Shown: positions 22,970 to 37,856 of the stretch, piece after piece
How the letters are laid out: each line of letters begins with the position of its first letter
How positions within the stretch are numbered: the stretch's first letter is position 1
Origin: Mumia sp. zg.B17
GTDB taxonomy: Bacteria; Actinomycetota; Actinomycetes; Propionibacteriales; Nocardioidaceae
DNA length: 64,000 nt
Assembly (NCBI RefSeq): GCF_019550915.1
Contig: NZ_JAHWCI010000009.1
Span: 62,001 to 126,000, forward strand
Direction: 5' to 3'
Notes under the pieces: model-generated
Told to the model about the DNA's origin: nothing
What the model saw: the letters and a program-made list of their open reading frames with translations, nothing else
Databases searched by the model: none
Program-made: the position numbers and the translations under genes

Positions 22970-22985
22970 GGATTCACGTGAAACG
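22970..22985. other. parS-like site between gyrB and gyrA
   Basis: The sequence GGATTCACGTGAAACG matches the parS 14-base core GTTTCACGTGAAAC at 13 of 14 positions and keeps the TTCACGTGAA centre. It lies in the 62-base gap between gyrB and gyrA, 12 kb from the three sites near parAB. ParB binding is inferred. Confidence 0.6.
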
Positions 22986-34984: not shown

Positions 34985-35623
34985 GTGCAGATGGATGTTT
35001 CACGTGGAACATCGCCCCCCGACGCGGCCCGGATCATCTTCGGTGACCGCGTCGAGGTGGTGTCTGCCTATGTCGACATGCTCTCTGACGCCGGTGTCGT
35101 CCGCGGTCTGATCGGCCCACGGGAGGTTCCGCGTCTTTGGGAGCGCCACATCCTCAACTGCGGTGTGGTCGCGCCCGCTCTCCCCGCCGGCGCCAGCGTG
35201 GCCGACATCGGGAGCGGGGCGGGGCTGCCGGGCATGGTCTGGGCGATCGCCCGGCCCGACGTCGCGATGACGCTCATCGAGCCGCTCCTTCGCCGGACGA
35301 GCTTCCTCGAGGAGGTCGCCTCCGACCTCGGTGTGGACAACGTGACAGTTCTTCGTTCTCGCGCTGAGGACGTCCGTACGCAGTACGACATCGTGACGTC
35401 TCGCGCGGTGGCGGCTCTCGACAAGCTGGCCAGGTGGTCGCTGCCACTGGTCCGACCGGGCGGCCAGATGTGGGCGATCAAGGGATCGTCGGCTGCTGAG
35501 GAGATCCGTGAGGCACAGTCCACAGTCCGCGCGGCGAAGGGGACAAATGCGCGAGTCACCACGTACGGTGAGGGAGTCGTCGACACTCCCACGACGATGG
35601 TGATGATCGACAAGGTGGGCTGA
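34985..35623 (+). CDS. rsmG: 16S rRNA (guanine527-N7)-methyltransferase RsmG
   Basis: A 212-residue SAM-dependent methyltransferase that makes m7G527 in 16S rRNA; loss gives low-level streptomycin resistance in many bacteria. The SAM-binding motif is VADIGSGAGLPGMVWAI; LWERHILNC and VTSRAVAALDKLARW are also typical. GTG 34985 starts the product MQMDVSRGTSPPD, and the codons for VSRG overlap a parS site at 34996-35011. The start follows two bases after jag. Its stop is followed directly by the ATG of a small ORF leading into parA. Confidence 0.95.
   Translation: MQMDVSRGTSPPDAARIIFGDRVEVVSAYVDMLSDAGVVRGLIGPREVPRLWERHILNCGVVAPALPAGASVADIGSGAGLPGMVWAIARPDVAMTLIEPLLRRTSFLEEVASDLGVDNVTVLRSRAEDVRTQYDIVTSRAVAALDKLARWSLPLVRPGGQMWAIKGSSAAEEIREAQSTVRAAKGTNARVTTYGEGVVDTPTTMVMIDKVG
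34996..35011. other. parS site inside the start of rsmG
   Basis: TGTTTCACGTGGAACA matches the parS palindrome TGTTTCACGTGAAACA at 15 of 16 positions. It overlaps codons 5-9 of rsmG. ParB bound here would nucleate the partition complex about 3 kb from oriC. Confidence 0.85.
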
Positions 35624-35776
35624 ATGCAGGACAAGATTGCGTCCGGGTTGGGCTATCCGTGGATCAGCTCCAAGGTCAACCCGCTCCCGGCAGACCTCAC
35701 GCGCGGCCCGGTTGGCTGGCAGCAACCCCCGGTTTCACGTGAAACCAAGACGAACCACGAGGAGTGGCCCGCGTGA
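35624..35776 (+). CDS. Putative 50-residue protein coupled between rsmG and parA
   Basis: An ATG directly after the rsmG stop (TGAATG) opens a 50-codon frame, MQDKIASGLGYPWISSKVN..., whose TGA overlaps the parA start (GTGA). I recognise no family. Hand count of G+C by codon position gives about 60%, 52% and 82%, the profile of a real gene in this genome; most A/T third positions fall in the parS site at 35731-35746, which is constrained by ParB binding. The product has no membrane helix or known motif; it is Pro/Trp-containing and mildly charged. Alternatively the frame is a chance stretch between rsmG and parA. No ribosome site is needed if translation is coupled. Confidence 0.5.
   Translation: MQDKIASGLGYPWISSKVNPLPADLTRGPVGWQQPPVSRETKTNHEEWPA
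35731..35746. other. parS site upstream of parA
   Basis: GGTTTCACGTGAAACC is a perfect 16-bp palindrome containing the full parS core GTTTCACGTGAAAC. It lies 26 bases upstream of the parA start, inside the last third of the putative 50-codon ORF. Confidence 0.92.
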
Positions 35777-36747
35777 ACGACACTGACCGTCCCCCGGCGT
35801 TCCCACGCGCGTCCGACCTCGCGCACGGCGGTGACATCGCCGCCGACACGCCGCTCGCTCAGGAAGTCGCCGCATCACTGATGCGCCAGCAGCTGGCGGA
35901 GAAGCACGACCCGATGCCGCGTCCTACGGCGACGCGCGTGATCGTCGTCGCGAACCAGAAGGGCGGCGTCGGCAAGACCACCACCACGGTCAATGTGGCG
36001 GCTGCGATGGCGACACACGGTCAACGCGTCCTCGTGATCGACCTGGACCCCCAGGGCAACGCTTCCACGGCGCTTCGGGTCGAGCACGACGCGGAGACCG
36101 CTGGTGTCTATGAGGTCCTCGTCGACGGACAAAGCATCGAGTCCCTGATCCAGCCGTGTCCCGACGTCAACAATCTTGACGTCCTCCCCGCCTCGATCGC
36201 GCTGGCGGGCGCGGAGATCGAGCTCGTCCCGATGGTGGCACGCGAGAACCGACTGCGACGAGCACTCGAGGCGTTCTTGGCTTCCGATGCGGAGAAGAGC
36301 CGGCCGTACGACTACGTCTATGTGGACTGCCCGCCGTCGCTGGGTCTCCTGACCGTGAACGCGTTGGTCGCAGCCCGCGAGGTCATGATCCCGATCCAGT
36401 GCGAGTACTACGCACTGGAGGGCCTCAGTCAGCTGGTGAAGACGGTGGACATGGTCCAGGAGCAGCTCAACCCGGCGCTCAACCTGAGCACGATCCTCCT
36501 CACAATGTATGACGCCCGTACGCGACTGAGCGCGGGTGTCGCCGACGAAGTCCGTGCCTACTTCAGCGATCGGGTGCTCAAGACGGCCATTCCGCGCTCG
36601 GTCAGGATCTCGGAAGCACCCAGCTATCAGCAGACTGTCATCACGTACGACCCGAGCTCGCCGGGTTCCCTGGCCTACCTGGAGGCGGCCCGAGAGATCG
36701 CCGACGCAGGAGCGCGTGCAGGCGCCGACCAAGGAGCACACGAATGA
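35773..36747 (+). CDS. parA: Chromosome partitioning ATPase ParA
   Basis: A 324-residue ParA/Soj ATPase. Walker A deviant is [13 protein letters not shown], Walker A' region [10 protein letters not shown] and Walker [13 protein letters not shown]; the nucleoid-binding and ParB-responding features of chromosomal ParA are conserved. An N-terminal extension of about 55 residues precedes the ATPase fold. I prefer GTG 35773, 10 bases after GAGGAG, to GTG 35764, which overlaps that ribosome site. ParA forms a nucleoid gradient that pulls ParB-parS complexes apart after replication. Its stop overlaps the parB start (ATGA). Confidence 0.96.
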
Positions 36748-37856
36748 GCCAGCAACGCCGCGGACTCGGGCGAGGCCTCGGTGCCTTGATCCCCACGGCG
36801 CCCTCTGTTTCACGTGAAACGGCGGCTTCCCCGACAGCAACGTCCACACTGACCGCCGATCCGACCACGGAGCCCGACGCGGATACCCGGGCAGCCTCAA
36901 GCTCTGACGCCGGTGGACGGCACCAGGACGCGCACGTCACCGACGGGCTCGACGCGGGTAAGGACGCCAGACAGGATGCCGGTGCGGATACCGGTGCCGA
37001 GCAGGGCCTCACAGCCGTCGCTGGCGCCTACTTCGCTGAGATCCCGGTCGACAAGGTCGCCCCGAACCCGCGTCAGCCCCGCGAGGTCTTCGACGAAGAC
37101 GCGATGGCCGAGCTCGTCCACTCGATCCAAGAGGTCGGGCTTCTTCAGCCGGTCGTCGTCCGGTCGGTCGGCGACGAGACGTTCGAGCTCGTCATGGGCG
37201 AGCGCCGCTGGCGAGCGACGAAGGCCGCCGGGCTCGAGGTCATCCCCGCCATCGTGCGGGACACCTCCGACCAGGACCTCCTGCGCGACGCGTTGCTGGA
37301 GAACCTGCACCGGTCGGAGCTGAACCCCCTCGAAGAGGCCGCGGCCTACCGGCAGCTCCTGGATGACTTCGGATGCACGCACGACGAGCTGGCGACACGC
37401 ATCGGCCGATCCCGACCGCAGATCAGCAACACCCTGCGGCTCCTGCGGTTGAGCCCGGCGGTCCAGCGTCGAGTTGCCGCCAGCGTGATCAGCGCGGGCC
37501 ACGCGCGTGCCCTCGTCGCCGTCACCGATCCCGCCCGCCAGGACCGGCTCGCGCAGAGGGTGGTGGCCGAAGGTCTCTCGGTCCGCGCGTTGGAGGAGCT
37601 CGTCGCGCTCGGTGAAGGAGATGAGCCCGACGCTGAACCCCGCCAGCGGCCTCGCCGGCCGGTCGCTCCGAAGCTGGTCGATCTGGCCGACCGCCTCGCG
37701 GACCGCTTCGACACGCGGGTGAAGGTCGATCTGGGCAAGACCAAGGGCAAGATCACGGTCGAGTTCGCCTCGATCGACGACCTCGAGCGCATCGTCACCC
37801 TGATGGACCCCGCAGACATCGCAGCGGGCTCGCCGGACGCACCCTCCGGCGACTGA
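36744..37856 (+). CDS. parB: Chromosome partitioning protein ParB
   Basis: A 370-residue CTPase and parS-binding protein. An unusually long, poorly conserved Ala/Asp/Thr-rich N-terminal region (about 12-92) precedes the ParB N-terminal domain (about 95-185: [25 protein letters not shown]; the CTP-binding [12 protein letters not shown] and [14 protein letters not shown]), the helix-turn-helix domain ([15 protein letters not shown]) and the C-terminal dimerisation domain. A third parS lies in its own 5' coding region at 36806-36821. It ends before a strong hairpin convergent to trxA. Confidence 0.96.
36806..36821. other. parS site inside the start of parB
   Basis: TGTTTCACGTGAAACG carries the perfect 14-base parS core. 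It encodes VSRET-like residues in the disordered N-terminal part of ParB, so protein constraint is weak there. A parS in the parB 5' region is common in other bacteria. Confidence 0.92.

Follow-up and report, generated by a model that had tools for sequence, protein, structure and literature searches.

Few bacterial segregation systems have been studied as thoroughly as ParABS, which is regarded as consisting of three parts. At the par locus of Mumia sp. zg.B17 the interval between rsmG and parA is filled by an additional short open reading frame (Table 1), which raises the question of whether this ORF encodes a further protein of the partition operon, serves only for the passage of ribosomes, or is open by chance. 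The window analysed here is the whole stretch of 64,000 nucleotides from this strain, and all coordinates refer to it. Comparative analysis indicated that ORF 35624-35776 is almost certainly a real protein-coding gene, and we consider it probable that a small protein corresponding to a detached tail of ParA accounts for the locus as a whole.

Table 1. Features of the rsmG-parA-parB region of the window
Feature	Position	Strand	Evidence
rsmG (gidB), upstream gene	34985..35623	+	Pfam GidB 7.4e-53; NCBIfam TIGR00138 above cut-off; TGA stop touches ORF start
Small ORF, predicted 50-aa protein	35624..35776	+	Sequence; conserved in G001-G005; predicted disordered
First motif LGYP, ORF codons 9-12	35648..35659	+	LG[Y] invariant in genus; LGWP in most other lineages
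Second motif VGWQ, ORF codons 30-33	35711..35722	+	PVGWQ invariant in genus
parS centromere site within ORF, in-frame reading VSRET	35731..35746	.	Exact 14-mer GTTTCACGTGAAAC at 35732-35745
TGA in parA frame, within parS	35740..35742	+	Sequence; L001 parA frame opens only past TGA
GAGGAG, likely parA ribosome-binding site (ORF codons Glu46-Glu47)	35759..35764	+	Sequence
GTGA overlap, ORF stop/parA start	35773..35776	+	6/6 species
parA, chromosome-partition ATPase	35773..36747	+	Pfam AAA_31 1.9e-60, CbiA 1.2e-28
parB, ATGA overlap with parA end	36744..37856	+	ORF listing; N-terminal residues read from sequence

The first-pass annotation of this DNA had described an ORF that begins directly past the rsmG stop codon, overlaps the start of parA and contains parS. 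All of this agrees with the sequence: the ATG immediately follows the rsmG TGA (35621-35623), the TGA found 50 codons later (35774-35776) overlaps the parA GTG as GTGA, and the exact parS 14-mer lies within the interval originally proposed (35731-35746). The G+C content by codon position, counted by hand as 60/52/82%, was reproduced upon recomputation (0.60/0.52/0.82; the corresponding values are 0.70/0.51/0.80 for rsmG, 0.71/0.46/0.81 for parA and 0.76/0.50/0.84 for parB). The accompanying statement that most A/T third positions of the ORF belong to parS was incorrect, since only four of the nine A/T-ending codons are located inside this site. As the ORF listing of the GC-rich window contains many chance ORFs of 30-60 codons, ORF length and GC3 alone constitute weak evidence of coding. 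A search against Pfam and NCBIfam profiles identified no family at an E-value of 1 or better, and AlphaFold2 gave no secondary structure for the product as a free peptide, i.e. it is predicted to be disordered.

The window genome (G000) was compared with those of five congeners (G001-G005), which together represent six species of the genus. The frame (49-55 codons) is stop-free in all six, the indels within it are exclusively multiples of three, and none of the other frames across the same interval is stop-free in all of these species. The GTGA overlap with parA is present in each genome, and at the opposite end the rsmG stop and the ORF start form TGATG in G001 and G003; in the other species the ATG comes immediately after a TGA or TAG. 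Frameshifts and stop codons in relatives, named in the first-pass annotation as findings unfavourable to a gene, were absent from the five congeners. Substitutions were counted for the closest species pairs, with the parS codons excluded. Synonymous changes outnumbered non-synonymous ones by 15 to 11 in one pair and by 14 to 10 in the other (on approximately 32 synonymous and 97 non-synonymous sites), which corresponds to pN/pS ratios of 0.22-0.24 and dN/dS ratios of 0.17 and 0.16 (Fisher p ~5e-5 each); a lack of protein constraint outside parS, the other unfavourable finding named at that time, was thus not observed. For more distant pairs the ratios ranged from 0.11 to 0.79, one pair being saturated, and the pN/pS of ParA was lower. 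The substitution pattern indicates that the peptide is constrained, yet evolves faster than ParA. This six-species conservation and purifying selection lend strong support to the earlier proposal that the ORF encodes a small protein of the partition operon.

The constraint is concentrated in three blocks of the ORF, namely (i) LGY, (ii) PVGWQ and (iii) VSRET, of which LG[Y] and PVGWQ are invariant in the genus. Since VSRET is the translation of parS, and the Glu-Glu found further downstream corresponds to the likely ribosome-binding site of parA (GAGGAG, retained in five of the six species and replaced by a GGGAG-like sequence in G003), part of the constraint on the C-terminal third of the ORF acts on the DNA. 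The part of the constraint acting at the protein level, as judged from the sequences, is represented by the two aromatic motifs.

Small ORFs located between rsmG and parA in related actinobacteria, whose examination had been recommended by the first-pass annotation, were then surveyed in approximately 125 rsmG-parA intervals, representing 45 families of the class, and in eight additional loci from two families of the same order. A motif pair was defined as two [LIVM]G[WY] sequences, at least one of them followed by Pro, separated by 10-40 residues and placed between rsmG and the ParA core. The ORF of the window carries such a pair (LGYP at codons 9-12 and VGWQ at codons 30-33), the second motif being devoid of Pro, as is also the case in L007, L009, L013 and L015. 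The analysis revealed an equivalently placed [L/I/V]G[W/Y]P motif pair in 21 of the 45 sampled families. Most commonly it is in frame with ParA and forms a disordered N-terminal tail of this protein, as exemplified by MTSAPPRSGALGWPETVAGAVVGLGWPDVSRAT...ParA (L021), Microtetraspora glauca (L074) and MGTVAGLGWPEEAERRTSGSLGWPSTS...ParA (L027). Such fusions (L007, L009, L013, L016, L020-L030, L074, L156, L160, L167-L169 and others) were detected in the family and order of the window as well as in other families. In an alignment of 16 fused ParAs, residues G12, W13, G25 and W26 (L021 numbering) are invariant, with 'GLGWP' at the ParA N-terminus, and the linker that follows the motif pair is unalignable.

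No fewer than a dozen lineages possess the pair as a free ORF, which in most cases overlaps parA as ATGA/GTGA. The 4-nt overlap with parA occurs in the genus of the window and in L077, L086, L166, L192, L195, L201, L203, L211 and L220; the free ORFs of L015 (from the window's own family), Auritidibacter L083 and L181 do not end at parA in this way. The ORF of the window genome is not in frame with ParA (its stop is at 35776, the TGA of the ParA frame at 35740-35742 and the ParA start at 35773), so it represents a 'detached tail' and not part of the ParA polypeptide. The free ORFs of L077, L195 and L211 are very short (approximately 35-45 codons); in these, parS itself is located between the two LGWP motifs, the second of which extends to the ATGA overlap or stops one residue ahead of it. 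Two members of a sister genus, L149 and L150 (G095 and G104), carry a degenerate free ORF (TGWPW...PVGWQ...PRET) that ends near the parA start. This weaker version is missed by the strict pattern, and the ORF has been lost from the other sampled species of that genus. The pair is absent from many of the related lineages sampled, including most of g7 and g20 (within the window's family), Streptomyces, Mycobacteriaceae and most Microbacteriaceae/Micrococcaceae, which suggests that its function is dispensable or replaceable. An LGWQ sequence at the RsmG C-terminus of L010 was dropped, because only one motif is present in this stretch, which also contains an ambiguous base. A phylum-wide HMM search for the pair was not used to determine its distribution, since it was too insensitive: scoring was limited to 26 candidates per genome, and established bearers such as G261 escaped detection.

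The strict motif [LIV]G[WY]P was counted in every frame of 123 intervals, i.e. in approximately 15,000 codons per frame. It was found 66 times in the frame of parA, 23 times in that of the free ORFs (f1) and five times in f2; in the antisense frames the counts were 0, 1 and 2. Within the motif, Gly is encoded by GGC (51), GGT (16), GGA (14) or GGG (13), and Pro by CCG (45), CCC (21), CCA (17) or CCT (11). These data point to conservation of the motif at the level of protein and not of DNA: synonymous codons vary, W stays, and the other frames are near background. The distribution of the two forms was mapped onto a quickly built tree of RsmG and the ParA core, in which many forks are weakly supported, so that the change counts are approximate and no direction was inferred. 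Free versus fused forms require at least five changes (nine in the best of 100 label shuffles), and presence versus absence of the pair requires 23 (31 in the best shuffle). In 40 relatives, strong matches to the motif profile (below ~1e-3) were detected at the par locus only, where checked. We consider it very likely that the ORF is coding and under purifying selection, that it contains two aromatic short linear motifs 10-40 residues apart, and that the same pair is fused to ParA elsewhere, the switch having occurred several times. On the evidence of position and motif, the ORF is most probably homologous to the N-terminal ParA tail, a relationship that goes beyond the view of the first-pass annotation.

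In the fused ParA of L021 the tail (residues 1-67) was modelled by AlphaFold2 with pLDDT values below 50 and the ATPase core with confidence; the tail was not docked on monomeric ParA (shallow alignment, no dimer). A second recurrent motif, FGPxPAPG, is located in the linker that connects the LGWP pair with the ParA core (L007, L009, L013, L014, L016, L022 and others); numerous members of the family and order to which the window belongs share it. Giant ParA reading frames of 1,698-1,905 codons were identified in f4/g31 genomes (L256 in G042, L257 in G048 and L263 in G045). They carry the LGWP pair near the N-terminus, followed by approximately 1,300-1,550 low-complexity residues rich in Ala, Ser, Gly, Pro and Glu, with two or three in-frame VSRET copies of parS, and then by a normal ParA ATPase. 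Retained at the tip of so long a linker, the motif would behave like a docking site.

The separation of the ORF from ParA in the genus of the window has a structural aspect. The parS frame that contains TGA (FT*N) is here the frame of parA; consequently, an upstream extension of parA across parS is blocked, and ParA must start downstream, with the ORF keeping the VSRET frame. One structural reason for the split between the ORF and ParA can thus apparently be read from the sequence.

These observations bear on several other explanations of the ORF. That it is a chance open frame in the GC-rich DNA around parS can practically be dismissed: frames in such DNA are long by chance and many ORFs of 30-60 codons lie nearby, but this explanation is refuted by the six-species conservation, the dN/dS values and the motif counts by frame. 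A leader whose translation couples rsmG to parA was the alternative offered by the first-pass annotation. In its strict form, the ORF would be a leader or spacer that merely lets ribosomes cross parS on their way from rsmG to parA, and its amino acid sequence would be irrelevant. Stop/start overlaps at both ends of the ORF in all six species and the position of the likely parA ribosome-binding site within it are in favour of this view. A leader alone is nevertheless highly improbable, given the purifying selection outside parS, the retention of the LGWP pair across families despite free synonymous change, and the fusion of the same pair to ParA elsewhere; moreover, the RNA structure of the transcript is not unusual (fold z +0.8), and no terminator-like site, as in a leader/attenuator, was found on the coding strand. 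It is also very unlikely that programmed -1 frameshifting near the end of the ORF produces a tailed ParA as a minority product. Seen from the ORF, parA occupies the same -1 frame in most of the free lineages, and the two form one protein elsewhere, but the fixed -1 relation follows from the ATGA/GTGA overlap alone, and L015, L083 and L181 display a different frame relation to parA. No slippery heptamer (X XXY YYZ) was seen between parS and the stop on inspection of the sequences, there is no unusual downstream structure, and the parS TGA in the parA frame leaves only approximately 30 nt for a shift.

An alternative concerning the partner of the peptide, rather than its coding nature, is that the peptide or fused tail recruits ParA to the polar scaffold DivIVA/Wag31. 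The N-terminal extension of Mycobacterium smegmatis ParA is required for DivIVA binding, its third residue being critical (PMC9298525), and resembles the tail described here in that the extra residues precede the ATPase core of a protein encoded after rsmG/gidB in an operon; an extension of this type is absent from the ParA proteins of other phyla (PMC9298525). In contrast, the mycobacterial/corynebacterial extension comprises 20-25 residues, none of the sampled Mycobacteriaceae displayed the LGWP pair, and in the window the motifs reside in a separate ORF. DivIVA was detected in the window genome and in most bearers of the pair, but also in non-bearers; moreover, G348 (98% complete) carries a free LGWP ORF and no recognisable DivIVA (best E 4), the matches in G314 and G252 are sub-threshold only, and a free peptide would still have to contact ParA. 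We therefore regard recruitment to DivIVA as unlikely. As presence/absence correlates, MreB (lacking in several bearers) and DivIVA were both rejected, since neither tracks the motif. Their absence from some bearers means that neither is a general partner, unless the genomes are incomplete or the homologues too diverged. That the pair is kept in genomes with no recognisable DivIVA speaks against a general role of DivIVA as its partner and would be more in line with a target in the ParA/ParB apparatus.

For a detached ParA tail, the following mechanism may be proposed. Ribosomes finishing rsmG would translate the peptide and re-initiate at parA (termination-reinitiation), so that the peptide and ParA would be made in a fixed ratio. 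The architecture of the junctions in all six species (TGATG, or TGA/TAG then ATG, upstream; GTGA downstream) makes coupling plausible, and we consider the coupled co-production of both products somewhat more likely than not. The contacts resemble those of coupled overlapping gene pairs, in which ATGA or TGATG mediates termination-reinitiation (PMC6728339, PMC10666635); the difference is that the upstream partner here is a 50-residue peptide predicted to be disordered and not a globular subunit. Subunits of heteromeric complexes are over-represented among genes with short overlaps (PMC10666635), and gidB and parA are co-transcribed in mycobacteria (PMC2346475).

The two motifs could allow the peptide to bind two sites, in trans in this genus and in cis where it is fused. 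Given the interchange of free and fused forms and the retention of the motif on linkers of approximately 1,300 residues or longer, the likeliest target would be a constant component of the segregation apparatus (the ParA dimer, ParB or a protein associated with them) rather than the linker of ParA. Binding within the ParA/ParB complex is a tentative and rather doubtful suggestion. It is possible, though less likely than not, that in many actinobacteria the LGWP-pair peptide is a previously unrecognised, bivalent component of ParABS that binds a core segregation protein (the ParA dimer, ParB or a constant partner) and functions equally well in cis, as the tail of ParA, and in trans, as a free subunit present in stoichiometric amounts. 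When phylogeny was considered, tail presence was not linked with any residue of ParA or ParB; the raw signals disappeared or were underpowered in a comparison comprising only about five supported independent contrasts. The N-terminal Leu-Gly-rich linear peptide of ParB is expected to touch ParA. The ParB peptide of the window and the LGWP motifs are alike in being short, Leu-Gly-rich linear peptides of Par proteins, a likeness without demonstrated sequence homology; unlike the former, LGWP is aromatic, paired, and situated on or beside ParA.

The occurrence of the motif pair in about half of the sampled families, together with the switching between tail and free form, points to an unmapped binding site. 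A search of open-access PMC text with the single string 'GLGWP' returned one unrelated paper and no relevant match; the LGWP motif pair is apparently undescribed so far. It is worth mentioning that the annotation of these genomes may place the start of ParA incorrectly and, because the free ORF is far shorter than the usual length cut-offs, may miss this ORF altogether.

Further parS sequences are present in the window, i.e. an exact copy inside parB (36807-36820) and a copy with one mismatch at the start of rsmG (34997-35010). The three sites at 34997-35010, 35732-35745 and 36807-36820 share one codon register (VSRG/VSRET), which is the stop-free one. Another parS-like site with one mismatch (22971-22984) is located far upstream of the par operon.
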